A DNA stretch of 46,533 bases from a bacterium (GTDB lineage Bacteria; Spirochaetota; UBA4802; UBA5550): assembly GCA_024224995.1 (NCBI GenBank), contig JAAENB010000241.1:1-46533 (forward strand). The letters are read 5' to 3'. Position 1 is the first letter of the stretch. Each line of letters starts with the position of its first letter. Below the pieces are notes generated by a model. It made no database searches and was not told where the DNA came from. It worked only from the letters and a program-made list of their open reading frames with translations. The translations under genes and the position numbers were made by a program. Shown piece by piece: positions 9,941-29,405 of this stretch.

Positions 9941-11395
9941 ATGGATTCAATAGAAATCTCGCATTTTGAAGACAATGGCAAGCCAAAGGATGAATGTGGC
10001 GTATTTGGAATATACGGAAATCCCAGGGCTACAAATTTAACCTATTTAGGTCTTTATTCACTCCAACATAGAGGGCAGGAATCTGCCGGAATAGCTTCTT
10101 CCGATGGTGATCATATTTATCGAAAAGCCGGAATGGGAAAGGTTGTTGATATTTTTTCAGAGGATCATATTGAAAACCTGAAGGGTTATATGGCCATTGG
10201 GCATAACCGGTATTCAACTACGGGTTCTTCTTTTTTAAGGAATGCCCAGCCCCTTCGTGCTGATTCTATCCTGGGGCCCATTGTTCTGGCTCATAACGGT
10301 AATTTAACCAATGCCGGGGCCTTACGTCTGGAGCTTGAAAAAAAGGGTCATATTTTTCAAACAACCAATGACTCGGAAGTTATTGTTCATCTTATGGCCA
10401 GTTCCGGCATTCGGGATTTTTCCGATGCCCTGATCCACGCGCTCAAACTGGTTAAGGGAGCCTATTCTCTTATTATGATGAATAAGGAAAAGATTTACGC
10501 TGCTCGTGATCCTCACGGGTTTAGACCCCTGGTTTTGGGAGAGCTCGATAATTCATTTGTCGTTGCTTCCGAGACCTGTGCTTTTGATATTATTGATGCC
10601 AAGTATATCAGGGAAGTACGGCAGGGAGAGGTAATGGAGATATCCAAGTATGGTATCAATTCCTTTTTTCCCTTTGAGAACAAAAAACAGTCTCTCTGTG
10701 TATTTGAATATATTTATTTCTCAAGACCCGACAGTCTCATTTTTGGAGAATCCGTTCACGATATGAGAATTAAACTGGGCCGCATGCTGTCGAAGCAGGC
10801 CCCTGTTGAGGCCGATATTGTGGTACCTATTCCCGATTCATCCGTTTGCGCGGCTATGGGATACGCCAGAGAATCGGGCATCCCCTATGAAATGGGTATG
10901 ATCCGGAGCCATTATATTGGCCGGACATTTATTGAACCAAGCCAGAAGATAAGAGATTTTGGCGCGAAAATCAAGTTTAACGTGGTAAAATCTTCGGTTG
11001 AAGGCAAGAGAATCATTGTTGTTGATGACTCCATTATGCGGGGTACTACAATGAGAAAGATCATGAAAATGTTCAGAAAGGCCGGCGCCAAAGAGATCCA
11101 TGTGCGGATCTCGGCCCCTCCTACGAAGTTTCCCTGTTTTTACGGTATCGACATTCCTACGCATAAGGAACTGATCGCTGCTACACATACTATAGAAGAG
11201 ATCCGTAAATATCTCAGGGTCGATTCTATTGAATATATGACCGTTGAAACCATGATTGGAGCTCTTGACTCTAAAATGGAGTTTTGCACTGCCTGTTTTG
11301 ACGGGAATTACCCCTGCGAACTGGAAGAAGCTTCGGGTGTGGAAGATGATCAGAAGTATCTTTTTGAGGATATGGGGAATAGCGAGTATTACTAG
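9941..11395 (+). CDS. purF: Amidophosphoribosyltransferase
   Basis: Catalyses the first committed step of purine synthesis: PRPP and glutamine to 5-phosphoribosylamine. The 484-residue protein has the Ntn-type glutaminase domain, whose nucleophile C19 (DECGVFGIYG) would be exposed by removal of an 18-residue propeptide. The YSLQHRGQESAG and HNRYSTTG blocks follow. The C-terminal half holds the PRPP loop IIVVDDSIMRGTT. Cysteines in KQSLCVFEY, KFPCFYGID and the late CTAC suggest the Fe4S4 cluster of the Bacillus-type enzyme. A strong terminator follows. It stands alone here, without other pur genes. Confidence 0.96.
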   Translation: MDSIEISHFEDNGKPKDECGVFGIYGNPRATNLTYLGLYSLQHRGQESAGIASSDGDHIYRKAGMGKVVDIFSEDHIENLKGYMAIGHNRYSTTGSSFLRNAQPLRADSILGPIVLAHNGNLTNAGALRLELEKKGHIFQTTNDSEVIVHLMASSGIRDFSDALIHALKLVKGAYSLIMMNKEKIYAARDPHGFRPLVLGELDNSFVVASETCAFDIIDAKYIREVRQGEVMEISKYGINSFFPFENKKQSLCVFEYIYFSRPDSLIFGESVHDMRIKLGRMLSKQAPVEADIVVPIPDSSVCAAMGYARESGIPYEMGMIRSHYIGRTFIEPSQKIRDFGAKIKFNVVKSSVEGKRIIVVDDSIMRGTTMRKIMKMFRKAGAKEIHVRISAPPTKFPCFYGIDIPTHKELIAATHTIEEIRKYLRVDSIEYMTVETMIGALDSKMEFCTACFDGNYPCELEEASGVEDDQKYLFEDMGNSEYY

Positions 11396-11496: not shown

Positions 11497-11569
11497 AGGC
11501 CGTTAGCCTAACTGGTAAGGCACCGGTCTCCAAAACCGGCGATTGCGGGTTCGAATCCCTCACGGCCTG
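11497..11569 (+). tRNA. tRNA-Trp (anticodon CCA)
   Basis: The acceptor stem pairs AGGCCGT with ACGGCCT, with G as the discriminator expected for Trp. The D arm is GCC...GGC. The anticodon stem CCGGT/ACCGG holds the loop CTCCAAA, anticodon CCA. The T arm is GCGGG-TTCGAAT-CCCTC with one mismatch. CCA is not fully encoded. The part from 11515 to the 3' end recurs at 18994-19050, marking this gene as the integration site of the following island. Confidence 0.95.
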
Positions 11570-11570
11570 C
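11515..11570 (+). repeat. Left attachment site within tRNA-Trp
   Basis: From GTAAGGCACC to the tRNA 3' end. The first 32 bases (11515-11546) are identical to 18994-19025. The final stretch (TCCCTCACGGCCTGCATT) is also identical, with a small divergent patch in the T-stem between them. It covers the D-loop end, anticodon arm and T arm, the usual extent of tRNA att sites. Confidence 0.75.
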
Positions 11571-11583
11571 ATTTTTTAAGAAG

Positions 11584-11774: not shown

Positions 11775-12839
11775 ATGAAAAAGAATAACAAAAATAAATT
11801 ACATGCAATTGATTTCTTCTGCGGTGCCGGTGGGATGACATACGGTTTATCCAAAGCCGGTATTGATGTTATTGCCGGTATTGATATTGACTCGGAATGC
11901 AGGAAAACTTATGAAGTAAATAATCCCGGTTCAGAATTTATTAATTCCAATATTAAAGCCCTTAAATGTGAAGATTTGGAAGAAAGTCTTGGTATTAAGA
12001 AAAATGACGACAGCATGATTTTTGTTGGGTGCAGTCCATGCCAATATTGGACTAAGATGAATACTATTAAGGGGAAATCGGAAGCGTCAAAAAATTTATT
12101 AATTGATTTTAAACGATTTGTTGAGTATTTTAACCCCGGGCATATTGTAATTGAAAATGTTCCGGGCATATTTCGAAATCAGGAAGAAAGCGGATTAAAA
12201 GATTTTTTATTGTTTCTTGAAGAAAATAACTTCTATTCCGATTATGATACTATTTTCGCTTGTCATCACGGAGTTCCGCAATCGAGGAAAAGATTTTTAT
12301 TGGTTGCCAGCCGTATTATTGAAGGAATCAAATTACCGGAAAAAAGAAAGGGTAATCCCCCAACTGTTCAACAGTACATTGGTGAACAAAACGGATTTCG
12401 TAAAATTGAAGCCGGAGATACGGATGATAGCCTTTTTATTCATAGCGCTGCCAGTCTTACTGAAAATAATCTGAAAAGAATTAAGAAGACAAAACATGAC
12501 GGAGGAAATCGTTTTGCCTGGAAGGATGATGATGAACTTCAAATTCCTGCTTATAAAGACAAAGATCATCTTTTTATAGATGTTTACGGACGTATGTACT
12601 GGAATAAACCAGCCCCAACCATAACTACAAGATTTAACAGTTTGTCAAATGGTAGATTCGGTCATCCGGTAGAAGATAGAGCAATTTCTTTACGTGAAGG
12701 TGCTACTCTGCAAACTTTTCCGAAAAAGTATAAATTTTTTGGTCCTAATCAATCAAGTATCACCAGACAGATCGGTAATGCGGTTCCTCCCGAATTATCC
12801 AAAAGAATAGGTAAGGTTTTTACCAAATCATTCAAATAA
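11775..12839 (+). CDS. DNA (cytosine-5-)-methyltransferase
   Basis: A 354-residue C5 methylase that would transfer methyl from S-adenosylmethionine to cytosine in a specific DNA site. Conserved blocks appear in order: motif I DFFCGAGG (residues 13-20), motif IV GCSPCQYW with catalytic C89, motif VI IENVPG (E127), motif VIII QSRKRFLLV, and motifs IX/X with RQIGNAVPPEL at the C-terminus. The target-recognition region between VIII and IX is about 110 residues and its specificity cannot be read. It is the first gene of the island operon; the next start is 14 bp downstream. No partner restriction enzyme of the ordinary type II kind is visible. The vsr gene at 17476 fits a C5-methylating enzyme, as Vsr repairs T:G mismatches left by 5-methylcytosine deamination. 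Confidence 0.95.
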   Translation: MKKNNKNKLHAIDFFCGAGGMTYGLSKAGIDVIAGIDIDSECRKTYEVNNPGSEFINSNIKALKCEDLEESLGIKKNDDSMIFVGCSPCQYWTKMNTIKGKSEASKNLLIDFKRFVEYFNPGHIVIENVPGIFRNQEESGLKDFLLFLEENNFYSDYDTIFACHHGVPQSRKRFLLVASRIIEGIKLPEKRKGNPPTVQQYIGEQNGFRKIEAGDTDDSLFIHSAASLTENNLKRIKKTKHDGGNRFAWKDDDELQIPAYKDKDHLFIDVYGRMYWNKPAPTITTRFNSLSNGRFGHPVEDRAISLREGATLQTFPKKYKFFGPNQSSITRQIGNAVPPELSKRIGKVFTKSFK

Positions 12840-12853
12840 CCGGGGAGTCATAA

Positions 12854-15832
12854 ATGGCTACATTTAAAACCAGAGCTCGTGCTCTCGACATGCTGGGCAG
12901 ACAGCAGATTGCCGGTATTCCCAATGCGATCAGTGAGCTATTTAAAAATGCCCATGATGCCTATGCCGACAATATTCGTGTCGATTTTTTTCGCAGTGAT
13001 CAGTTGTTAGTTCTCAGGGATGATGGGTTTGGTATGACTCATGAGGAATTTGAAGAGAGATGGCTTACTCTTGGTACTGAGAGTAAACTCAAAGGTTCGG
13101 ATGAAGACGGATTCTTGCCAATAGAGGTTCCTAAAGATAAGATAAGAGCAATTTGTGGTGAAAAGGGAATTGGTAGATTGTCGATTGCTGCCATTGGTCC
13201 GCAGGTTTTAATTTTATCGAAAGCTAAACGAAAGAACAGGATCAATCCGCTTGTTGCCTGTTTTATCAACTGGACTATGTTTACAATACCCGGTATTGAT
13301 CTGAGTGAGATTGTAATACCTATCAGGGAGTTCTCCAAAGATCAATTGCCGGGGAATAGTGATGTTAAAGGAATGGTAAATGAAGTTGTAAAGAATCTTA
13401 AATCTATTTATAAAAATAAAAAATATCCGGAAGATATATATAATATAATTCATAAGGAATTAAAAGAGTTCAATCTTGATATTGAAGAAAGCTATGATTA
13501 TCTTGGAGTGCCTTCTTTAAAAGAGAACAATACAGGAACACATTTTTATATACTGCCTACCGATGAAATGTTTATAAATGAATTAATCCCGGAAGATAAT
13601 AATTCGGTCTCACCAATAAAAAAGACATTATTGGGCTTCAATAATACTATTAATCCTAAGAAAAATCAGCCTGATGTAAAGCTTACATTTTTTGACTTTG
13701 AGACAGACACTAATTATAAAGACATTATTGCCGAAGAAGAATTTTTTACATCTGATGATTTTGAAGCTGCTGATCATGTAATTGATGGTAAATTTGATAA
13801 ATTCGGAACTTTTCACGGAGATATATCAATCTTTGGTAAAAAGATAAAGGGGCATACTGTCCCATGGAGAAAATCGGAAGAGGGGGAGACGCTTTGTGGT
13901 CCTTTTTTATTGAAATTCGGATATGTGCAAGGCATGCCAAGAGATACACATGTTGAGTTAGATAAGCATGGGGAAATAGTTCGCAAGACAAATAGAATTG
14001 GAGGCCTTTATATATACCGTAATGGAATAAGGGTTTTACCCTATGGGGATATTGATTTTGATTTTCTTGAAATTGAAAAAAGGAGAACATTATCTGCAAA
14101 GTATTATTTTTTCTCTCATAGACAGATGTTCGGAGCTATAGAAATAGATAGTGAAAATAATTCACGATTGGTAGAAAAAGCAGGGCGAGAAGGTTTTAGA
14201 AGAAACAGGGCCTATATACAGTTTCGAAGTATTCTTATTGATTTCATATTGCAGTTAACCGCAGATTTTTTTAGAGAGGAAGGGAGTGGTCTAAAAAGTG
14301 ATTTATGGATAGAAGGTCGTAAAGAGAATCAAAGACGATATAAAGCCAAACAAAAGAGAGAAGAAGAATCCGAAAGAGCATTAAAAGCTTTTGGGAGGAA
14401 AGTCAGCGATTTTTTTTCTAAATATGAAAAAGGAAAACCGAAAAAACAGTATGATGCGTTGTATAATGATGTAAAAGACAGGATTGATTCCATAATAGAA
14501 AGCAAAAAAAATATTTCCCAATGGCTTTCTAGGTATCGCTCGGAGGCATTTAATTTAATAAACGACCTGGAAAGTTCATATAAAATTGAAAGACCTCATG
14601 GTTTTGGCCTGAATCCCGATCTTGAAAAAGATTGGGTTTATTATAACGAATTGTTTGAGAGACTAAAAGAAGAAGTTTTTGGTGTTTACCGGAAAAAAAT
14701 TACCGATCTATTTTATGAAAGTGAAGATATTGCCAAAAATGCAAAATCACCGGAAGAGATATTTGAGGATAATATTACTCATGAGATTGAGTCTTCTATA
14801 TCGAAAGTTGATGCTGAAAAAGAAAGTGTATCTAAAGATATTACGGCAAGTATTAATAATACGGAAAAGCTGGTACAATCGATATTCAATGATTATGAAA
14901 AAGAAATCAAAAAGTTAACTAAGAAGTTTGAATCAGCAAAGAAGAAAAAAGCTGATATGACCGAACTTGAGGTTCTGGCACTTGGCGAGATTCATATAAT
15001 AACAGAGAAATATAAAGAAATTCTGGCAAGAGTTAACGAGAAAATCAATGATATAAAATTTACACGAGATAAAGAAGGTTATGTTATCTCTTCTCTAGAT
15101 GTTACGGAAGCTCAGGAACATGAACTTTATGAATTTAAAGAACGAATAGATGCCGAGTTGGATTTAGTACAAATTGGCTCTGCTGTTAGTATAATTCATC
15201 ATGAATTTCATACAGTAGGCAAGGCAATTAGATCTAATTTAAAAGAATTAAAAAATTGGGCTGATATAAATGAAAAATTGTTTTACCTTTATAGTCGATT
15301 AGTCGACAATTTTGATCATCTCGATGCTTTTCTTGCTCTTTTTACACCTTTAAACAAAAGAAAAAATTTAAAAAAGAGATTGATCAAAGGATCAGATGTT
15401 TCAAAATATATTGCCGATGTATTTGTTGACAGTTTTGAAAAGGACGCTATTAAGCTTGAAAAAACTAATGATTTTATGAATTACAAATTCGAAGGATTTA
15501 TTTCATCATTTTATCCTGTTTTTTTGAATATTATTGATAATGCTATTTTTTGGCTTAAGGAAAAGAAAAGAAATCGAATAATTAGACTTCACACCGAGAA
15601 GAATGGTGACTTTATAGATTTATTAATATCAAATAATGGTCCGCCGGTACCACTAAGATCAAGAAATCGGATTTTTGAAAGAGGATATACAATAAAACCG
15701 GGCGGCAGGGGGCTTGGTTTGTTCCTCACTAGGCAAGGGCTTGCTAAAAACGGTTTCGATATTTCACTCGATGAAGAGTCATATTTCAAAAATGGTGTAA
15801 CTTTTCGAATATCCAAGATAGAAGAGGAATAA
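12854..15832 (+). CDS. Dual-GHKL protein: MutL/MORC-like ATPase fused to a histidine-kinase-like module
   Basis: The 992-residue protein has two separate GHKL folds. The N-terminal one carries an N-box SELFKNAHDAYA (E28, N32, D35), G1 RDDGFGM (D56, G58, G60) and G2 GEKGIGRLSIAAIG near 102-112, the HATPase_c_3 pattern of MutL, Hsp90 and MORC proteins. A long helical, coiled-coil-rich middle runs about 490-770. The C-terminal part looks like a sensor kinase: SIIHHEFHT near 780-787 as a phosphorylatable His box, N-box LNIIDNAIFWL near 890-901, an F-box IFERGYTIK, and GGRGLGLFLTRQ (950-961). Its G1 box is NNGPP instead of DNGPG. The next gene encodes a receiver-domain protein 4 bp later, so phosphotransfer is a natural idea. 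No membrane segments are seen, so any signal is cytosolic. Role in phage defence is inferred from context. Confidence 0.88.
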   Translation: MATFKTRARALDMLGRQQIAGIPNAISELFKNAHDAYADNIRVDFFRSDQLLVLRDDGFGMTHEEFEERWLTLGTESKLKGSDEDGFLPIEVPKDKIRAICGEKGIGRLSIAAIGPQVLILSKAKRKNRINPLVACFINWTMFTIPGIDLSEIVIPIREFSKDQLPGNSDVKGMVNEVVKNLKSIYKNKKYPEDIYNIIHKELKEFNLDIEESYDYLGVPSLKENNTGTHFYILPTDEMFINELIPEDNNSVSPIKKTLLGFNNTINPKKNQPDVKLTFFDFETDTNYKDIIAEEEFFTSDDFEAADHVIDGKFDKFGTFHGDISIFGKKIKGHTVPWRKSEEGETLCGPFLLKFGYVQGMPRDTHVELDKHGEIVRKTNRIGGLYIYRNGIRVLPYGDIDFDFLEIEKRRTLSAKYYFFSHRQMFGAIEIDSENNSRLVEKAGREGFRRNRAYIQFRSILIDFILQLTADFFREEGSGLKSDLWIEGRKENQRRYKAKQKREEESERALKAFGRKVSDFFSKYEKGKPKKQYDALYNDVKDRIDSIIESKKNISQWLSRYRSEAFNLINDLESSYKIERPHGFGLNPDLEKDWVYYNELFERLKEEVFGVYRKKITDLFYESEDIAKNAKSPEEIFEDNITHEIESSISKVDAEKESVSKDITASINNTEKLVQSIFNDYEKEIKKLTKKFESAKKKKADMTELEVLALGEIHIITEKYKEILARVNEKINDIKFTRDKEGYVISSLDVTEAQEHELYEFKERIDAELDLVQIGSAVSIIHHEFHTVGKAIRSNLKELKNWADINEKLFYLYSRLVDNFDHLDAFLALFTPLNKRKNLKKRLIKGSDVSKYIADVFVDSFEKDAIKLEKTNDFMNYKFEGFISSFYPVFLNIIDNAIFWLKEKKRNRIIRLHTEKNGDFIDLLISNNGPPVPLRSRNRIFERGYTIKPGGRGLGLFLTRQGLAKNGFDISLDEESYFKNGVTFRISKIEEE

Positions 15833-15836
15833 AATA

Positions 15837-17504
15837 ATGGGGTATAAGACTTTTCAGGAATTCACAAAAAATATAGTAAAGGAGTTTATTCAAACCGTTG
15901 TCTTTGTGGATGATAAAGCATATGAATTTCCGTCGGGATCATCCATCGGTCCAATCGCAACAGAGGTAGACGAACCTGAGAAAAAGAAAAGGGAAGTGGT
16001 TGATGAAAAAGAAGAGGACAAAATTAAAGAACCTATCCTTAGCAGGCCGGATCATTCCCTACATGTAGCAGAATTGGTAAAGGCATTTACTTCTTCTGGA
16101 GTAGTTTGTTCGGTAATAAATCCGAAATTTGATAATATTTATGAATTGATACCCACTATTGCAACAAAAGCTGATGTTGTTGTACTTGATTGGGAATTTG
16201 AAATGCTCGGGGCAGGGAATGGATATCCTGAAGATCCGGCACTGGATATTATTCTGAAAATTATTAAAAATGATGAAAAAGATTTTCCACGTCTTAGACT
16301 TATTTTGATTTATACAACTGAGATTATAGAAGATGTTGCTGAAAAAACTGTTAATGCAGTAGAAGCAAATGGTACTAAATTTACACATAAAGAAGAAGAT
16401 TTACTGGCATATGCCAATGAAAGCCTAAGAATTAGAATTATTGGGAAAAAAGGATTTGGTAAAGATAAAAATAAATATGATGAGGAAGAATTACCTGAAA
16501 TCATATTCGAAGAATTTGCAAAAATGGCTGATGGTTTACTGCCTAGCCTAGTATTAAAATCATTTTCTACAATAAGAAATAATACTCATAGAGTATTAGC
16601 CCGTTTTAATAAGGATTTGGATCCGGCAATAATTGCTCATAAATCTTTACTGGATAGTCCGGAAGATTCAATTTTGAATTCCGAACAGTGGATATCTGAT
16701 GAAATAAATTCATTAATAATGAATTCAGATAGTGGGCAAGTCTTAAATGATGAAAATATAGACTTATGGATCGATGAAAAGTGTAAAAAAGGATATAAAA
16801 AATTAAACTATAAAGGAGTTCCTATATCAATAAATCATAGTCAACTAAAAAAAATTCCAAAAGAAGGATTTTACTCTTACCTGAAGGAGAACAGAACAAA
16901 AAAATTACGGAAAAAAAATGAGAATACCCGCGAAATTATCAATCATATCTTTATGGATTTACCTAGCATTTATTATCCGTTAAAAAGTGATAAAAAGAAA
17001 TATGACATTGAATATAATTTTTCTCAATTAACATCATCTCTATTTAATTATAATCATAAGCTACCCACATTGAAACTAGGTACAATATTATTTCATCAAG
17101 ATAAATACTGGCTTTGTCTTCAACCTCTATGTGATACTGTAAGAATAAAAACAAAGAAAAGAGCATTTTTACTCGTAAAATTAATAATTAAAGAAGGTAG
17201 AGATTTTGATTTTGTAGTGAACGATTCTGATAATTGGATTCCATTAAGGATATCATATCGTATTTATGATTCAAAACTTATCATTTTTAAGTCAAATCCA
17301 AAAGAAATAGTTGAAGGAAAAGAAAGTGAAACAGGTGGTTATTTTTTTGAAGCTTTTGCTGATAATTCAGATAGCAAAGAACTCGTTCAATACAAATTTA
17401 TCAGTGAATTAAAAAATATGTATGCACAAAGAATATTGAATAATTTTGCATCAAACCTTTCAAGGGTAGGACTTGATGAGTTCGAATGGCTACGACGATC
17501 CTAA
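15837..17504 (+). CDS. Receiver-domain protein (Response_reg_2-like) with large unassigned C-terminal region
   Basis: The 555-residue protein starts with an atypical receiver fold: acidic pair in TVVFVDDKA (D25, D26), likely phospho-acceptor D118 at the end of strand 3 (VVVLDWEFE), the Thr of LILIYTTE (160-161), and a Lys in IIGKKG (204-205). A charged insert at about 45-70 separates strand 1 from the rest, unlike CheY. Residues about 215-555 carry no motif I recognise; they are rich in Lys, Asn and Ile and contain no obvious nuclease or HTH signature. The gene begins 4 bp after the dual-GHKL gene and its end overlaps vsr by 29 bp, so it is the likely phosphorelay partner. Its output might be to control Vsr or DNA binding. 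The whole gene is very A-rich. Confidence 0.8.
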   Translation: MGYKTFQEFTKNIVKEFIQTVVFVDDKAYEFPSGSSIGPIATEVDEPEKKKREVVDEKEEDKIKEPILSRPDHSLHVAELVKAFTSSGVVCSVINPKFDNIYELIPTIATKADVVVLDWEFEMLGAGNGYPEDPALDIILKIIKNDEKDFPRLRLILIYTTEIIEDVAEKTVNAVEANGTKFTHKEEDLLAYANESLRIRIIGKKGFGKDKNKYDEEELPEIIFEEFAKMADGLLPSLVLKSFSTIRNNTHRVLARFNKDLDPAIIAHKSLLDSPEDSILNSEQWISDEINSLIMNSDSGQVLNDENIDLWIDEKCKKGYKKLNYKGVPISINHSQLKKIPKEGFYSYLKENRTKKLRKKNENTREIINHIFMDLPSIYYPLKSDKKKYDIEYNFSQLTSSLFNYNHKLPTLKLGTILFHQDKYWLCLQPLCDTVRIKTKKRAFLLVKLIIKEGRDFDFVVNDSDNWIPLRISYRIYDSKLIIFKSNPKEIVEGKESETGGYFFEAFADNSDSKELVQYKFISELKNMYAQRILNNFASNLSRVGLDEFEWLRRS

Positions 17505-17934
17505 AGCCAAAAATTCAACGGATATTTATTCCGCAACAAAACGAAGCGAAATCATGTCCAAAATCTCCGGTAAGGACACAAAACCGGAATTAATTGTAAG
17601 AAAATATTTGTTTTCAAAGGGATTCAGATTCCGGCTAAATGACAAAAGATATCCGGGAAAACCTGATATCATCCTTCCAATGTATAAAACTGCAATCTTT
17701 GTCCACGGATGTTTCTGGCACGGACACGAGGGCTGCAAAGCATCCAGACTTCCCCAAACCAGAAAGGAATTCTGGGAAAAGAAAATCAACGATACAAAAG
17801 TGCGCGACAAAAGGAACATCCGGGAGTTAAAAGAGCAAGACTGGAAAGTTCTAATTATATGGCAATGTAAGATAAAGAATAAGAAGGACAGAGAGTCATA
17901 TTTGGAAGAAATCGTCCGCCAGATATTAGATTGA
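17476..17934 (+). CDS. vsr: Very short patch repair (Vsr) endonuclease
   Basis: The 152-residue protein matches Vsr almost throughout: SATKRSEIMSKISGKDTKPE at the N-terminus, the catalytic PGKPDI (D64), then FVHGCFWHGHEGC with H77, C79, H82 and C87, and late LIIWQCKI supplying the last zinc cysteine. Vsr nicks 5' of the T in T:G mismatches from deaminated 5-methylcytosine. In E. coli it follows dcm; here two signalling-like genes lie between them. I used ATG 17476, which overlaps the receiver gene by 29 bp. The canonical WEC is WQC here. In this setting it may be a repair enzyme, or an effector nuclease redirected to defence. Confidence 0.93.
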   Translation: MSSNGYDDPKAKNSTDIYSATKRSEIMSKISGKDTKPELIVRKYLFSKGFRFRLNDKRYPGKPDIILPMYKTAIFVHGCFWHGHEGCKASRLPQTRKEFWEKKINDTKVRDKRNIRELKEQDWKVLIIWQCKIKNKKDRESYLEEIVRQILD

Positions 17935-17985: not shown

Positions 17986-18722
17986 ATGAAAGATCTTTTT
18001 ATACATAAAATTGCAATCAATAAGGTGCGGCATCTTGAAGGGATTGAAATTCCGCTTTCAGATTCGGAAAGAAAGCATCTTATTTTAACCGGAAGAAACG
18101 GAAGTGGAAAATCGCAAGTTTTGATAGCAATGAGTGAGTATTTTGCTGATATCACAAATAAAGAATTCATTCATAATTATTACAGAGAAGGAGGCTTTAT
18201 AACCGCCCATTTTGATGCCAAAAGAACTTCACAGTTAAAAAAGCCCAATGGGATAACCAAAATAGACCTGAAAAAACATATTCTATTGAAGAAAAAGCCG
18301 GTGAAAGTTTCATCCAGTACATTGTAAACCTCAAAGCAGACCGTTCATTTGCCCGGGACGACAATGACATGGAAACCGTAAAACAGATTGATGACTGGTT
18401 CCAAAAATTTGAAAACGGCCTGAAAGAGATCTTCGAAGATGAAACCCTTGAACTGCAGTTCGATAAAAAGAATTATAATTTTAATATAATCCTGCAAAAC
18501 AGAGAAAATTTTGATTTTAACACCCTGCTGGAAAACAGGCTCTTAATTGACGATATGTCGGGATTATCATACGACGGAATCGTAGAAAGCTATTTCAACT
18601 CAGATAAATACTCTCAAATAGTAAAAGAAAAAATTAACGAATACGAGTCTCTTTCAAACAAGGATAACCCAAGTCCGGATGAAAAAGAAAAACTTTTAGA
18701 GTTAAAGATCTTTTTTACATAA
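17986..18722 (+). pseudogene. Decayed AAA/ABC-type ATPase (COG3950-like)
   Basis: The start encodes an intact ATPase N-terminus: MKDLFIHKIAINKVRHLEG and the Walker A GRNGSGKS near residues 43-50. The frame breaks near 18260. The continuation in another frame (EKTYSIEEKAGESFIQYIVNLK...) runs to 18722. Within it, FDFNTLLENRLL jumps straight to MSGLSYDGIVESYF and a charged DNPSPDEKEKLLELK tail, which in COG3950-like ATPases lies after the signature, Walker B and H-loop. Those are absent, so a large internal deletion has occurred as well. An active enzyme is very unlikely. Family assignment is from memory of these motifs. Confidence 0.75.
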
Positions 18723-18991
18723 TGAAAACTGATGCTTATGGTATTGTTGAAAATAATACAGGTAAACCGGCTATTAAAATATTTGACCAGGCTTCAGATT
18801 CCTCATTAGTATATTTTTCTGTAAGTGAAGAATGGGCTATGGTTACTAAGAAAACCGGGGGATTTATATTAATTGTTATTTTGGATAACGAAATAGAATT
18901 AGATAATCTTAAAGAGTTATCTAAAGACCAGGTTATTAATGATTATTATGAAAAAGGCCTGGTTGATATTTTTTCACTTTCCGCGGAATGA
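18722..18991 (+). CDS. Small protein of unknown function at the island end
   Basis: The 89-residue protein starts with ATG overlapping the stop of the broken ATPase (TAATG), typical of a translationally coupled partner. The sequence is mixed beta/alpha with a hydrophobic GGFILIVILDNEIEL stretch and an acidic C-terminal half; no family is recognised. The stop is 2 bp before the tRNA-Trp remnant. It may be the second gene of the former ATPase unit, or itself a truncated remnant of a longer gene. Confidence 0.5.
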   Translation: MKTDAYGIVENNTGKPAIKIFDQASDSSLVYFSVSEEWAMVTKKTGGFILIVILDNEIELDNLKELSKDQVINDYYEKGLVDIFSLSAE

Positions 18992-18993
18992 AA

Positions 18994-19050
18994 GTAAGGC
19001 ACCGGTCTCCAAAACCGGCGATTGCTCACTTCGAGTCCCTCACGGCCTGC
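18994..19050 (+). repeat. tRNA-Trp 3' fragment, right attachment site
   Basis: A 57-bp copy of the tRNA-Trp 3' part: 32 identical bases, then a diverged T-stem (GCTCAC in place of GCGGG, one base longer), TTCGAGT for TTCGAAT, and an identical CCCTCACGGCCTGCATT. The 5' acceptor half and most of the D arm are missing, so it cannot form a tRNA. The mutations in the T-stem show it is no longer under selection. It marks the right end of the island. Confidence 0.85.
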
Positions 19051-19321
19051 ATTCTTTGTGTTTTTTTATCAGGGGAATGTATGAATTTTTTACCGAATAG
19101 AAGTTGTCTACAGATTTTGTTATACTAAATAAATACGACTGCTGGTGTAAAGCATAATTTAAAAAAAATATGGGGACAAATCTGTACCAACATTTTTTTT
19201 CGTATTGGTCTTGACAGGCATTTGTTTTATTGAGGAATATTTTTATTCTATGTGAAAGCTGCATTCCTACCCTGCCCGCTTTCAGGAAAAAACTTTTTAA
19301 AAACATCAGGAGTCAGTGGAC

Positions 19322-21124
19322 ATGAATATCGTAAAAAGAATAGCCTTAATCTTTCTGGTATTAATACTTTTTTCAAACACAGTACTATCTGCGGCAATAA
19401 GAGAATCGGTTGCTATAATAGAATGCAAACCAAATAAACAATTAGTAAACGCGCTGGAAAATATTGCAAAATATTTTGAAAAAAGTGGTTACCGGGGCAC
19501 TGCAAAATTATTAAGAGAACATAAAAAGGGGTGGAGTGGCAGTGGTTTTGTTGTCCGTGCTAATGGTCAAAATTTTCTTGTAAGCAATAAGCATGTACTT
19601 GGCAATAGTGGAAGCATAACAATAAAGTTTGAGGACAAAAAAGGAAACTTGTTTGAGATTAAGGAAAAAAGTACGGTCTTTGAAGATAGTCAGCTTGACC
19701 TTGCGCTGCTTGTTTTACCGGAAGGAATTAAGAATATTGAACCATTACGGCTTTATGATAAAGAAATCATAGAGGGAGACGATGCGTATGCGGCAGGATA
19801 TCCTGATTTATTAGGTCAGCCCTCATGGCAATTAACAAAAGGAATTGTATCAAATTCTTTTACAAAAGTTCCAACTATAATTGATCCTGAAATTTGCAGA
19901 CTCGTTCAGCATTCCGCATCAATAGATCCCGGAAGTAGTGGAGGGCCGTTGCTGGTAAAAAATGGAAATAATAAAAATTGGTCTGTTATTGGAGTGTCTT
20001 CATATTCAATAACTTCAAGGAGTAATACTTTCTTTGCAATTCCCGTAACAAAAGTAAAAGAACTAATTAAAAAATATCATACGAAAAAGAAGAATGCTAA
20101 AAATAAAGAAGCCATAAGAAAAGAAATTGAGTTGTTTGTTAAAGATTTATATAAGCAATTAAAAGAGCCGGCCTGGAATGCTTCCAAAGAACACCGTTTT
20201 GTTTCAATTGACAAAACGGCTCAAAAAGGTTGGGATTCAATATTAAGATTGTTTGATGAAGGTGACAAAGAGATTATAAAAAAAATGAATCATCGATTTC
20301 AATCATTAAGTTTTTTTGACGCCATGAGAGAAAGTGTATCCTGGTCAATATGGCATATTTTTCAAAATCAGGAAATTGATAAAACTCAAGAGTTTAATTA
20401 TGATATAAAATCAATTCCGGTTAGCCGGGAAGAAGGATCAATTATTAAAGTTGATTTGATAATGGCTCAAAAATCACTTAAAGCTGATTTAATATTTGAA
20501 TCCGGTCAATGGAGTATAAAAGAAATACAGTTTAGTGAGAAACCAAAATCAAAAGAAGCTGAAATTGAAATGGAACGTTCAATCGGTTATCAGTTCCATA
20601 TCGGTGTTGGGTTAGCGCCTTCTTTTGAAAATGAACAATATAGTGGGAATGAGACTCTTGCAGGATATGGAATGCTGCTTGCTTTAGAAAGTGGTCATTA
20701 TAAATATCTATCTACCACTCATGGTTTATATGTTGGTATGTATTCATTTACGTCTACTTATGATAGTTATGGTTATAGTTCTGGTTATGGTTATAGTTCT
20801 TATTCCCAAACAACAACAAAAGAATTATGGGAAATTGACTATCAATTCAGCATTAAATTGAGATTTCCCATAGCGTTTAGCTGGGGGTATGTAATACCAT
20901 TTGCTAATGCAGGGGTTGATTTAATTTTTTGTCTGGGTGCTGGTGCTGTGGAGAGTGGTACATCTGTATTATATTTGCCGGTAAAAGGTGGAGGTGGATT
21001 GGGCTTTCTAAGTCGAAGAGGCTGGGGGTTTGGAGTTAATATATGGAAAAGATCTAATGTTATAGGAGATGGAAAATTAGATGATATTAAAACTGATATA
21101 TATTTTACAATTGGCTCTTTTTAA
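19322..21124 (+). CDS. Secreted trypsin-like serine protease fused to an outer-membrane barrel-like region
   Basis: The 600-residue product has a signal peptide (about residues 1-24, ending LSAA). A trypsin-like domain follows with the full triad: H91 in VSNKHVLG, D126 in SQLDLALLVL and S206 in DPGSSGGPLL. After a linker and a helical-to-strand middle part (about 255-420), the last 180 residues alternate hydrophobic and polar residues, with GHYKYLSTTHGLYVGMYSF, a Tyr/Gly/Ser-rich YGYSSGYGYSS loop, and end in YFTIGSF. A terminal Phe is typical of outer-membrane beta-barrels. ATG 19322 has AGGAG nine bases upstream. The protease may be held at the outer membrane. It stands alone just outside the tRNA-Trp island. 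Confidence 0.82.
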   Translation: MNIVKRIALIFLVLILFSNTVLSAAIRESVAIIECKPNKQLVNALENIAKYFEKSGYRGTAKLLREHKKGWSGSGFVVRANGQNFLVSNKHVLGNSGSITIKFEDKKGNLFEIKEKSTVFEDSQLDLALLVLPEGIKNIEPLRLYDKEIIEGDDAYAAGYPDLLGQPSWQLTKGIVSNSFTKVPTIIDPEICRLVQHSASIDPGSSGGPLLVKNGNNKNWSVIGVSSYSITSRSNTFFAIPVTKVKELIKKYHTKKKNAKNKEAIRKEIELFVKDLYKQLKEPAWNASKEHRFVSIDKTAQKGWDSILRLFDEGDKEIIKKMNHRFQSLSFFDAMRESVSWSIWHIFQNQEIDKTQEFNYDIKSIPVSREEGSIIKVDLIMAQKSLKADLIFESGQWSIKEIQFSEKPKSKEAEIEMERSIGYQFHIGVGLAPSFENEQYSGNETLAGYGMLLALESGHYKYLSTTHGLYVGMYSFTSTYDSYGYSSGYGYSSYSQTTTKELWEIDYQFSIKLRFPIAFSWGYVIPFANAGVDLIFCLGAGAVESGTSVLYLPVKGGGGLGFLSRRGWGFGVNIWKRSNVIGDGKLDDIKTDIYFTIGSF

Positions 21125-25918: not shown

Positions 25919-27295
25919 TTGGCAGCAAAAAAAAGTTATAATAAAACAAGCTTTATTGAACAGGTAAACCTGGACCAGAAACGGTATTCAAGATATGTCT
26001 GTGATTCAAGGGCAATTCCCAATGAGATTGACGGGATGAAACCTGTTCAAAGGCGAATATTGTGGACTATGTGGAATTCTGTAGCAAAAAATAATTTTAC
26101 AAAGACTGTAAAAGTGGCAGGTCTGGTTATGGGGTATCATCCCCATGGCGATGTGTCAATTCAGGATGCTATATCCGCAATGACTCAAGATTTTACATTT
26201 GCAAATAACTATCCTCTGATACAGGGTGAAGGAACATTTGGCGATGTCCTTGATCCAAAGGCCATTGCATCTCCCAGGTATACAGAGGTTAAGCTTTCTA
26301 AATTTGCCGGAGACGTTGGACTTTTTGAATCAATTCAGGATATCGAATATATTACAAATTATGATGATACAAACCAGGAGCCTGTTTACTTTGTGCCGAA
26401 GGTTCCTGTTGTTTTATTGAATGGTATAACCGGAATCGCCACAGGGTTCAGGTGCTCAATACCCGCCCACCGGTTAACAGATATTGTAGATGCAATGATC
26501 GCGATATTAAAAAGAAAAAAACCTGGTGAGGTTGTTCCATGGTATAAGGACTATGCCGGGGATACCCTATACAGTAAGAATGAATCAGGCAACTTTGTCC
26601 ATATAACGGGATTTGGCTTTACTGAGAAAAATAAAAAAGTCTATTTAACATGCGCGCCTCAGAACTGGAACAGGGAAAAGGTTATAGATTATCTTGAGCA
26701 GACTATCAGCAATCCCAAATCCCCCTTACGGGATTATATCGATTATTCCACTGATAAGTTTGACATTGAATTAATCAGTAAAAAAGGTCAGAAATTTACA
26801 GTGGAGAGTGCAAAAGAGTTACTGAATAAAAAGAACAATGAAACTGTTGTTATGAATGTAATCACATCTGAAGGAAGACTTATAAATACTGATAGCATTT
26901 CAATTATTAAAAGATTTCTTGTTGTAAGAAAAGAGCACCTTGTTGAAAGATTTAAAAGGCTTTCAAAACTGGAAAAAGAAAAAATTGACAAAAATTCTGA
27001 ATTGATACGTTTTATTGAGGAAAAATGGAACCAGAAAGTCATTACCATTAAGAATAAACAGGATTTTGAAAAAAAATTAAAAACTGCAAAGTTTGTTTAT
27101 TATGAATGGTTATCTTCAATACCTGTGTACAGGATGACAAAGCAGGAAGTAGAGAAATCTAAAATGGCTATTGCTGAAGCAAAGAAGCAGTTCAAAATGT
27201 ATAAGGAATTATATACTGAAAGTCCTAAACTTAATAAGTTTATAATAAATGAAATCACAGAATTGAAAAATAAATGGGACCACAATGACAACTAA
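25919..27295 (+). CDS. Type IIA topoisomerase, A (GyrA/ParC-like) subunit, short form
   Basis: The 458-residue protein breaks and rejoins DNA with the catalytic Tyr at 121 (SPRYTEV), preceded by GYHPHGD near 72-78 and IQGEGTFGD near 101-109. It is much shorter than GyrA (about 800-880) or ParC (about 750): the C-terminal beta-pinwheel that wraps DNA is missing, and the protein stops after a coiled-coil arm. The start seems to be TTG 25919, preceded by AAAGAGG. The B-subunit gene begins inside its end (11-bp overlap), so the two are co-translated. The pair may be an extra topoisomerase from a phage or plasmid, since it is neither standard gyrase nor standard topo IV by length. Confidence 0.9.
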
Positions 27296-29405
27296 AAAAA
27301 ATAAACGAAACTTTAGAAAACTTTCAAACGTAGAGCATGTACGTCTCAGAACCGGTATGTGGCTGGGACAGAACTCCATGTCTGTTTACACTCAGCACTT
27401 TTTTGTTCCTGATAAAAAAGGGGAAAACTATACAATCAAACACGAAGAGATTCAAGAGATTCCGGCCAAGCTGAAATGTCTTGATGAGGCATGCATGAAT
27501 TGTGTTGATGAATATATTCGCAATCAGAATGACAAAACAATACCAAAATCTAAAAAAATGAATACCTTGACCGTGGTACTATCAAATAACCGGAAAAGAG
27601 TGACAATAGCAGATAATGGCAGGGGTATACCGGAAAAAAATGCAGAAGGTGTTTTCCTGCATCTCATGTATGGTGAAAACTTTGATGATAAGCTTAAGGA
27701 AGACCATATTGCCGGACAAAACGGTGTTGGTGTTTCTCTTGTTAGAATTGTGTCTTCATATTTTATGGTTGAAACAAACAATGATGGAAAATCCTATAAA
27801 AAACTTTTTACCGTAGCTGATGAATTCAAAAAAAAATTGAAAGACCTCAAGTACAGTGATGAAGATATAGCAAAGATATGTCTTCATTTTGATGAGCATG
27901 GAGAAATTACTACATATAATGATATTAATGAGAAGCACCGGAATACGCTGGAACAGGTCATGAAAAAGACGAAAATGACTAAAACAGTAAAAAAATGCTT
28001 ACCAAAGGAACATGGCACAACCGTTATTTTTGAGCTTAATGATGAATTTTTTGATGGTTTCGATGTGAGCTTTGATGTAGAACTAATGTCACAATTTTTA
28101 CAGGACATCGCTATGACCAATCCCGGGCTCACTGTGACATTTAAGCATAAGAGTTCTAAAAAGAATTATTTTTTCAAAAAAGGCCTTGAAGATATTCTAA
28201 AACTGTCCGGGATTAATCATCATAAATTCACATACACCAGTAAAGCAGAAGGATTACAATTAAACATACAATCTTTTGTTATTGAAGACAACAACAGGTC
28301 ACTATCATGGGTCAATTCCAACTTCGCGAGTCTTGGAGGAAGCCCTTTTGAGTATTTAGAAAACAGGATTTGTGATGAAATTAGAAAAAAGCCTTCAATT
28401 ATTGCCTTTGAGAAAAAATTGAAGACCACGGCAACACGGAATGATGTAAGAAACTGTTTTCACCTGTTTAATAACTGGCATATGCTGAATCCCAGGTTTA
28501 AGTCCCAGGATAAATCTTATTTGATTAATAATTTAAATGAAGAGATTAGAGAGGCAGTGGACTTAAACCTGGACAAACTTATCCGGAAACTGGATTTAGT
28601 AAATGCCATTAAAGGGCAAATGGAAAAACGGGCCAGGATTAAAGAAATTGATGACGCAGCAAAGAACCTTAGAAAAACCGCCAGAATAAAGATTGCCAAA
28701 CTGATTCCTGCAACCGGGAAAAACAATGAGCCCGGGAGAACACTGTTTATTGCAGAGGGAGATTCTGCTATTGCGGGACTTCGTCCAGCCAGGAATCCAT
28801 TGAAACACGCGCTCTTTCCTCTAAGGGGAAAGCCGCTAAATGTTATGGGAATGCCAATTGCTAAAGCAATGAAAAATGAGGAAATAAAAAACATTATATC
28901 CATTGTCGATTTGCCTTTAGATGGAAAAGTTAAAAGTATTGACCAGCTTAACTATGAAAGGATTTCTATTATTACTGACGCGGATTTTGATGGATATGCA
29001 ATTCGAAGTCTTATATTTTCATTCTTTTTTGAATACTGGCCGGAGCTTTTCCAGCTGGGATTTATCTATTATTCTTCAGCCCCCCTTTATGAGGTGGATG
29101 TTAAACTTAATAGTAAAAATTCTAAAATTGAAACCATTTACTGTGTTGATGATGATGAATATATGTCTCTTGAAAGGAAATTAAAAAAGCAAGGTGGAGA
29201 GATAGTGAGAAAAAAGCGGAATAAGGGATTAGGCGAGACAAGTAAAGCTGCAATGAAATATACTGTGGAAAATTGTCTTACAAAAGTCACTGTTGACGAT
29301 ATCAAGAAAGCCCGTAAAACACAGAGACTCTGGTTCCATAAGGATAATGCTGGGGATAGACGAAAAACTATATCTGAATATTCGCATCTGTTTCTGGATG
29401 ATTGA
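27285..29405 (+). CDS. Type IIA topoisomerase, B (GyrB/ParE-like) subunit
   Basis: A 706-residue ATPase/TOPRIM subunit. The GHKL boxes are [21 protein letters not shown] and [12 protein letters not shown]. The TOPRIM domain shows [22 protein letters not shown] and the metal pair in [13 protein letters not shown]. In gyrase/topo IV the G2 box reads HGVG, but here it is QNGVG, and the EGDSA box is followed by IAGL instead of GGSA. Those features are nearer to T4-phage or eukaryotic enzymes than to bacterial GyrB, as far as I can judge from memory. The gene overlaps the A gene by 11 bp. It should supply ATP-driven strand passage for the partner. Confidence 0.9.

Follow-up and report, generated by a model that had tools for sequence, protein, structure and literature searches.

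A candidate DNA-state-sensing phosphorelay encoded between a cytosine methylase and a Vsr endonuclease

What could a cytosine methylase, a MORC-like ATPase fused to a histidine kinase, a receiver protein and a Vsr endonuclease do together in one operon? The question is raised by a locus on contig JAAENB010000241.1 (assembly GCA_024224995.1), of which a stretch of 46,533 nucleotides, hereafter the window, was analysed. The explanation favoured here, with a probability of about 0.55, is that the first three genes form a phosphorelay that would sense the state of DNA and act against mobile DNA, and that Vsr is accessory to it. What can be seen directly in sequences or models comprises the gene set, its domains and retained catalytic residues, the joint divergence of kinase and receiver, and the exchange of methylases and nucleases around them. 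In a single operon the family combines DNA methylation with a MORC-like clamp and a relay from histidine kinase to receiver; it is spread over bacteria and archaea and has been kept intact in Escherichia coli.

The gene set itself is not new, as the available sections of an earlier genome comparison already describe it, including the position of Vsr, and propose a soluble two-component-like system related to the paraMORCs (Bellieny-Rabelo et al., 2021; PMC8011034). Judged by its sequence, the window locus is a member of this HEF_HK/Response_reg_2 methylase-linked two-component-like family. A preliminary description of this DNA had known of no experimental account of the exact set, and none was found here among open-licence PMC papers, but the set had already been recorded by comparison of genomes. 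Beyond the available sections of PMC8011034, the present analysis adds a tRNA-Trp island, a structural match to MORC and SMCHD1 proteins, the co-divergence of kinase and receiver, cassette exchange and the definition of the invariant genes.

The operon and its catalytic residues

Four complete open reading frames (ORFs) follow one another on the forward strand in the order methylase, GHKL protein, receiver protein and Vsr, with the following features (aa, amino acids):

11775..12839, + strand: C5-cytosine DNA methyltransferase, 354 aa, Cys89 in an intact PCQ motif (ORF call, Pfam, NCBIfam)
12854..15832, + strand: GHKL/HEF_HK protein, 992 aa, N-terminal MORC-like ATPase clamp, coiled coil and C-terminal histidine kinase (ORF call, Pfam, alignment, model)
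12866..14174, + strand: MORC/Hsp90-like GHKL and S5 part of this protein, about residues 5-440 (end placed by eye on the model)
15170..15364, + strand: HEF_HK phospho-acceptor helices, residues 773-837, including His782-His783-Glu784 (Pfam, alignment)
15512..15811, + strand: HATPase_c kinase domain, residues 887-986 (Pfam, structure match)
15837..17504, + strand: Response_reg_2 protein, 555 aa (ORF call, Pfam, alignment)
15885..16454, + strand: receiver domain, residues 17-206, with Asp25, Asp26, Asp118, Thr160 and Lys204
16455..17501, + strand: C-terminal half of the receiver protein, residues 207-555, helical and then beta, with a conserved LCLQPxCD motif (alignment, model)
17473..17934, + strand: Vsr endonuclease, starting at TTG 17473 or ATG 17476 (Pfam, NCBIfam, alignment with E. 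coli Vsr)

The methylase and GHKL genes are separated by 14 base pairs (bp) and the GHKL and receiver genes by 4 bp, while the receiver and Vsr genes overlap by 32 bp from the TTG (stop codon counted) or by 29 bp from the ATG; ribosome-binding-like stretches, read by eye from the letters, lie upstream of the second, third and fourth genes. The preliminary description had called these four genes an operon of this order and spacing, and the ORF calls bear it out, with its 29-bp overlap corresponding to the ATG. The residues that it had singled out (Cys89, Asn32, His782/783 and Asp118) are correct, and the Vsr aspartate is residue 64 from the ATG and 65 from the TTG. Its four gene identities are each supported by Pfam over the curated cut-offs, namely by PF00145 for the methylase (E 1.6e-49), PF13589 (HATPase_c_3, 5.7e-12), PF02518 (HATPase_c, 3.9e-13) and PF19191 (HEF_HK, 2.2e-21; 76.6 bits against a cut-off of 24.1) for the large protein, PF19192 (Response_reg_2, 4e-33; 115.5 bits against 27) for the receiver protein and PF03852 for Vsr (E 8.4e-34). 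The window thus holds PF19191 and PF19192 in adjacent genes, the domain order HATPase_c_3, HEF_HK, HATPase_c and a nearby C5 methylase, the four features by which the family was judged here. The available sections of PMC8011034 likewise give both domains as adjacent with this domain order, a C5 methylase upstream and Vsr downstream of the receiver gene, with HNH_2 as an alternative, and nothing was found in them that separates the window locus from the family.

In the large protein, His783 and Glu784 are invariant in 43/43 kinase-like sequences. It is modelled as three parts, a MORC/SMCHD1/Hsp90-like clamp followed by a coiled coil and then a complete histidine kinase: in a model built from the 43-sequence alignment (predicted local distance difference test, pLDDT, 79.0; predicted template modelling score, pTM, 0.59), long helices at about residues 450-735 precede a histidine-kinase core, and a structure search with the model likened the GHKL/S5 part to Morc3, MORC4, SMCHD1, MORC2 and Hsp90. 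An N-terminal GHKL ATPase followed by an S5 module, the hallmark used for MORC and paraMORC proteins, is present. Membership in the BbrUII/HgiDII family (NCBIfam NF050001) was considered and rejected, as a single stretch, residues 9-128, matched the N-terminal part of that family at 58.5 bits, far below the cut-off of 550.

The receiver protein carries the matching half of a two-component system, so that an acceptor histidine is paired with a receiver aspartate accompanied by an acidic pair, a threonine and a lysine. Asp25, Asp113 and Asp118 are invariant in 71/71 receiver proteins, and Asp26, Thr160 and Lys204 are kept in at least 90% of the 71; together with the kinase residues, this conservation supports the His-Asp signalling put forward in the preliminary description, and phosphotransfer from kinase to receiver is likely. 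A model from the 71 sequences (pLDDT 88.2, pTM 0.85) places a receiver fold at residues 17-231, and the C-terminal half, helical and then beta, is modelled mostly at high confidence, with Gly415, Cys427, Cys432, Asp433 and Arg436 invariant in the 71-sequence alignment. No Pfam family is common to the C-terminal halves, the best recurring weak match being zf_CopZ (5/71, best E 0.019), and no DNA-binding output domain was recognised by Pfam in the receiver protein. Of the structure searches for this half, two gave no match at E 0.001 and a third was filled by the receiver domain, which is not grounds for claiming a new fold. A search with the C-terminal half returned 94 proteins including the query; since 91 of them carry PF19192, this half is nearly always fused to a receiver, and the other three are proteins of 334-397 aa with no listed domain.

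The three-gene core and its neighbours

Judged by its recurrence in other genomes, the core of the operon is three genes, the methylase, the clamp-kinase and the receiver protein. The receiver family exceeded its cut-off in 8/296 and 11/398 genomes of two phylum samples (the centre genome included in each), and a gene matching the kinase profile adjoined the receiver gene in 19/19 of these loci; HEF_HK exceeded its cut-off in 13/396 genomes of the second phylum, 11 of the 13 being these same receiver loci, hence the arrangement is not due to chance. A C5 methylase lay within two genes in 16 of 17 loci with longer flanks. Among 60 rows (59 loci and the window; L057, with no labelled receiver gene, was dropped), a kinase gene was found within two genes upstream in 51 and a methylase within three genes upstream in 41. 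The loci found by pattern come from two peptide patterns of the receiver protein and are hence biased, and truncations at contig ends count as misses; gene calling relied on a greedy ORF script, and a gene was labelled kinase, receiver, methylase or Vsr by profiles built on the proteins of the window and the loci. The four families, which the preliminary description had proposed to search for elsewhere, do recur together outside the window, but the constant set is three genes and Vsr is variable. Three loci (L019, L034, L048) have a second C5 methylase after the receiver gene and thus two methylases per operon. Under-cut-off PF19192 matches in eight further loci (L069-L076) fall in ORFs of about 245 aa, each adjoining a same-strand ORF of 320-331 aa, and are perhaps ordinary receiver proteins.

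Triads in E. coli were reached by a DNA search with a related kinase gene, and they make the function directly testable in a laboratory strain. The triad of E. coli strain 4/0 was matched in 196/5,426 complete genomes, with at least 80% coverage in 194. Its methylase, kinase and receiver protein share 42%, 41% and 30% identity with those of the window, and it keeps 14/14 kinase and 17/17 receiver residues checked. Neither a Vsr (by profile) nor an annotated restriction nuclease was found around two intact E. coli triads in 18 kilobases (kb), extending 7.9 kb to the upstream side and 4.5 kb to the downstream side. Close to the two triads inspected are transposase pieces and cdiA/cdiI, a toxin-immunity pair.

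The receiver protein had no match in phage records and was matched in 1/72,556 plasmid records, and a near search for the E. coli triad in plasmids gave no match. The kinase-like protein was matched in 111 plasmid records (at least 80% covered in 3) and in 4 phage records (80% covered in none). The plasmid tally of the kinase includes 42 Campylobacter records, and Campylobacter plasmid genes named histidine kinase (H18-H33) match the clamp part, residues 5-465 of the related kinase gene, at about 25% identity.

Within the core, kinase and receiver have diverged together. For 49 of 77 loci (window included) the three genes are consecutive on one strand, and in this set pairwise identities of kinase and receiver correlate with r 0.96 (Spearman 0.91), and still with r 0.90 in the 942 pairs with kinase identity below 50%, whereas kinase and methylase identities give r 0.48 overall and 0.07 in the same distant pairs. 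Taken separately, each half of the kinase follows each half of the receiver protein (r 0.90-0.92). In a looser version of the comparison, shuffling the labels 2,000 times never gave a value as high as that observed for any two of the four families, and the methylase and Vsr are therefore linked as well, though less tightly. One locus, L092, duplicates the L013 contig; it was left out of the co-divergence and shuffle sets, but is counted among the 17 longer-flank loci.

The neighbours of the pair have been exchanged. L024 and L036 resemble L090 in the methylase (88%) and the HNH nuclease (92% and 85%), but in kinase (27-28%) and receiver (17%) they are far apart; their DNA homology to L090 covers the methylase, ends about 120 bp into the kinase gene and returns at the start codon of HNH (90% for L024, 78% for L036), with only a patch of about 270 bp at 68-69% kept between these ends, inside the kinase gene. 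The kinase-receiver pair is thus, by comparison of these loci, replaced between a nearly identical methylase and HNH nuclease. Homology between L033 and L093 and between L038 and L088 is likewise lost early in the kinase gene, after about 120 and 210 bp respectively, the latter two sharing one further 68% patch. The reverse is seen where L025, L028, L038 and L041 are compared with L039, as the kinases are 71-73% identical but the methylases only 36-38%; L038 and L039 share 64% in HNH and 38% in the methylase, a counter-example to a simple methylase-nuclease unit. Because methylases and nucleases are exchanged, the kinase-receiver pair is a fixed unit to which no one methylase or nuclease is tied, and kinase and receiver therefore appear as the invariant machine; the exchange would also argue against a sensor of one fixed sequence mark.

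Vsr is the only nuclease recognised by Pfam in the window operon. It aligns with E. coli Vsr through what we take to be the active-site and zinc residues of the latter, and it scores as an ordinary mismatch endonuclease (TIGR00632, 133.4 against 97.85 bits). At other loci the genes next to the core vary (Vsr, HNH_2, AAA, NOV_C) or go unrecognised as nucleases. Vsr lies within four genes in 30/60 rows and directly follows the receiver gene in 15, on the same strand in 13, and an HNH gene lies within three genes downstream of the receiver gene in 7/60, once on the opposite strand. Elsewhere the place behind the receiver gene is taken by AAA ATPases (AriA/OLD-like in PADLOC) or a NOV_C protein, each then followed by Vsr in some loci. 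In the 17 loci with longer flanks, Vsr is labelled nearby in 6 and an HNH homologue in 3 (once on the opposite strand), while neither is among the genes shown in 9, which may hold nucleases of other families; one of the nine, L099, has a broken Vsr stretch (29.9 bits) beside the methylase. Vsr was found at 6/8 triads of one phylum sample (G003) and at 2/8 loci of the other (G001), and is hence, from its distribution, a frequent but dispensable neighbour. At L103, no C5 methylase lies within two genes, and Vsr and an Mrr_cat gene are nearby; on contig C779 of genome G348, a HEF_HK match lies beside methylase and Vsr matches, and PF19192 was not detected there.

Proposed function and rival explanations

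In the proposed mechanism, the methylase would mark host DNA, and the large protein, as a MORC-like ATP-driven clamp, would probably close on DNA. If the DNA were in an improper state, be it unmethylated, damaged or invading, the coiled coil would switch on the attached histidine kinase, and His783 would be phosphorylated and hand its phosphate to the receiver protein at Asp118; the C-terminal half of that protein is a putative effector or an adaptor to one. Vsr would repair the T:G mismatches that arise when 5-methylcytosine is deaminated, and may in addition tie the methylase to its host cell. That Vsr is accessory is likely, DNA as the ligand of the clamp is reasonably likely, and for a role against mobile DNA the balance tips slightly in favour.

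Parts of this scheme are found in known systems. Like the paraMORC/MORC ATPases, as given in the available sections of Iyer et al. (2008; PMC2292703), the window has a GHKL and S5 module in an operon with a C5 methylase and a Vsr-type nuclease, but it differs in the complete histidine kinase after the coiled coil, in the receiver partner and in the lack of a recognised helicase; the available text of PMC2292703 contains neither "receiver" nor "response regulator". VcSduA, a GHKL-Shedu defence protein tested against phages, shares an N-terminal GHKL ATPase proposed to control an effector, but is a single protein with a fused PD-(D/E)XK nuclease, for which the available sections describe no kinase, receiver or methylase (PMC12137116). 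Druantia and DISARM were rejected: DruM/DrmMII models do match the methylase, but PADLOC found nothing in the receiver protein and a single weak match in the large protein (C3a76, 0.0039). Very short patch repair by Dcm and Vsr also has a C5 methylase and a Vsr-family endonuclease in one operon, whereas the window has two signalling genes between them. Two-component-like proteins act in phage defence in the Detocs phosphorelay, which has a nucleotidase-type effector; we know of no methylase or GHKL clamp in Detocs.

The preliminary description had made Vsr the controlled nuclease, so that the clamp-kinase and receiver would license it to nick or cut unmethylated or mismatched DNA. Its gene calls, operon and His-Asp signalling held, but this step fared less well. 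The overlap of Vsr with the receiver gene, its place directly after that gene in a quarter of the rows and its linkage in one phylum sample would suit such an effector, as would two points from the literature, namely that DNA damage upon loss of a methylase in Caulobacter depends on the Vsr-like enzyme VsrA, according to the available sections of PMC12907096, which therefore leaves a role of Vsr beyond repair open, and that the reference list of PMC2292703 holds a title on a functional MutL-Vsr interaction in E. coli. However, 30/60 rows, some cut by contig ends, have no Vsr within four genes, the two intact E. coli triads have none, a directly downstream Vsr does not track the kinase in distant pairs (r -0.19, 53 pairs), though Vsr within four genes does to some degree, and the window enzyme scores as the ordinary type; we regard Vsr as the effector as distinctly unlikely. 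The pair could instead sense methylation and regulate neighbouring methylase and nuclease genes of a restriction-modification system, with no activity of its own against foreign DNA. Signalling control of such systems is speculated on in the available sections of PMC8011034, and the pair sits, and is exchanged, between methylase and HNH; yet triads with no recognised Vsr or HNH are common, in E. coli and among the genes shown for the longer-flank loci, and a regulator would be expected to fit poorly with a receiver protein in which no DNA-binding output domain is recognised, so that this role is unlikely.

It is highly improbable that the locus is a selfish methylase cassette, in which methylase and Vsr or another nuclease form an addiction pair on a small island and the kinase and receiver time or damp post-segregational damage: the tRNA-Trp island with its repeats described below and the proposal, in the available sections of PMC12907096, that vsr-like genes can stabilise solitary methylase genes would agree with it, but Vsr is not found near many triads and kinase and receiver are bound more tightly to each other than to the methylase. 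The core might also work by MORC-type silencing or arrest free of any nuclease, the clamp recognising DNA that lacks the host 5-methylcytosine and the relay compacting or silencing it, or stopping the cell, with no cutting. We consider this decidedly improbable; the clamp is, by its model, related in fold to the eukaryotic silencers MORC2, MORC3 and SMCHD1, and if true, bacteria and archaea would have in this core a counterpart of methylation-linked MORC silencing that works through a phosphorelay.

Several observations weigh against the DNA-sensing phosphorelay with an accessory Vsr. In the G003 phylum sample, Vsr lies within 7 kb of 6/8 triad methylases (one broken, at L099) but of 32/140 other listed C5 methylases (Fisher p 0.004), a test based on 148 listed C5 methylase places, with split matches counted once, and 56 over-cut-off of 58 listed Vsr places; Vsr may therefore be more than accessory in that sample. 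Identities of Vsr within four genes and of the kinase correlate with r 0.49 over 300 pairs and 0.34 in 234 distant pairs, values close to those of Vsr and methylase (r 0.47 and 0.31 in the same numbers of pairs). The effector step has no direct support, as the C-terminal half of the receiver protein has no assigned function, and confidence in the kinase model is moderate, with pLDDT below 50 at residues 774-779 and 825-838. Identity over the locus is 99% or higher for all 194 E. coli copies, which perhaps represent few lineages, and no experimental paper on the family was found in the open-licence PMC literature. Finally, the 113 nearest of 148 selected flank proteins were compared with 113 control proteins, three of the control contigs being short. 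Apart from Vsr and HNH, each PADLOC family matched at most one of these flanking proteins at E 1e-20, and the controls yielded one CRISPR locus and a match to mad3. A dense defence island as the usual setting was therefore rejected, given so little clustering beyond the operon's own Vsr and HNH, and the frequency in defence islands that the preliminary description had proposed to count lends its reading little help.

The tRNA-Trp island and surrounding genes

The operon lies on an island of about 7.5 kb (7.48 kb), which comprises its four genes, two pieces of a PtuA-like ATPase and an 89-aa ORF, and on which the preliminary description was silent as to both the tRNA-Trp repeat and the PtuA-like pieces. 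The additional features are:

11497..11570, + strand: tRNA-Trp (CCA), left island edge (ARAGORN)
11515..11577, + strand: left attachment-site-like (att-like) direct repeat copy, within and just 3' of the tRNA gene (repeat comparison)
17986..18327, + strand: N-terminal piece of a PtuA-like ATPase, directly after Vsr (ORF call, PADLOC)
18369..18722, + strand: second PtuA-like ATPase piece, in a different frame (ORF call, PADLOC)
18722..18991, + strand: 89-aa ORF with no significant family (ORF call, Pfam)
18994..19057, + strand: right att-like repeat copy, 3' part of tRNA-Trp (repeat comparison)

The 63-bp repeat copies match in two blocks, 32/32 and 26/28 (93%), at a spacing of 7479-7480 bp, and the PtuA (Septu)-like pieces have PADLOC E values of 2.1e-16 and 1.6e-21. 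No integrase was recognised by Pfam among the island ORFs, and the island may be a site-specific insertion whose integrase was lost or never present. Such a tRNA-bounded island is not a general habit of the family, as 13/78 sequences have a tRNA in the part available for them and a far-side tRNA repeat occurs only in the window. A copy in E. coli NN5 (L182) carries insertion sequence elements in its methylase and receiver genes and lies beside tRNA-Leu and an annotated integrase.

On the left of the island, the PurF gene (9941-11395) has relatives of which the named organisms, among the 120 best listed, are Spirochaetota/Spirochaetes, at 73-80% identity; judged by this gene, the DNA comes from a member of the Spirochaetota. 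Just outside the right edge, positions 19316-21124 encode an HtrA/trypsin-like protease that is extended at its C terminus by about 330 residues, and the genes for type II topoisomerase A and B (25919-29405) overlap, the A subunit ORF being 458 aa long.

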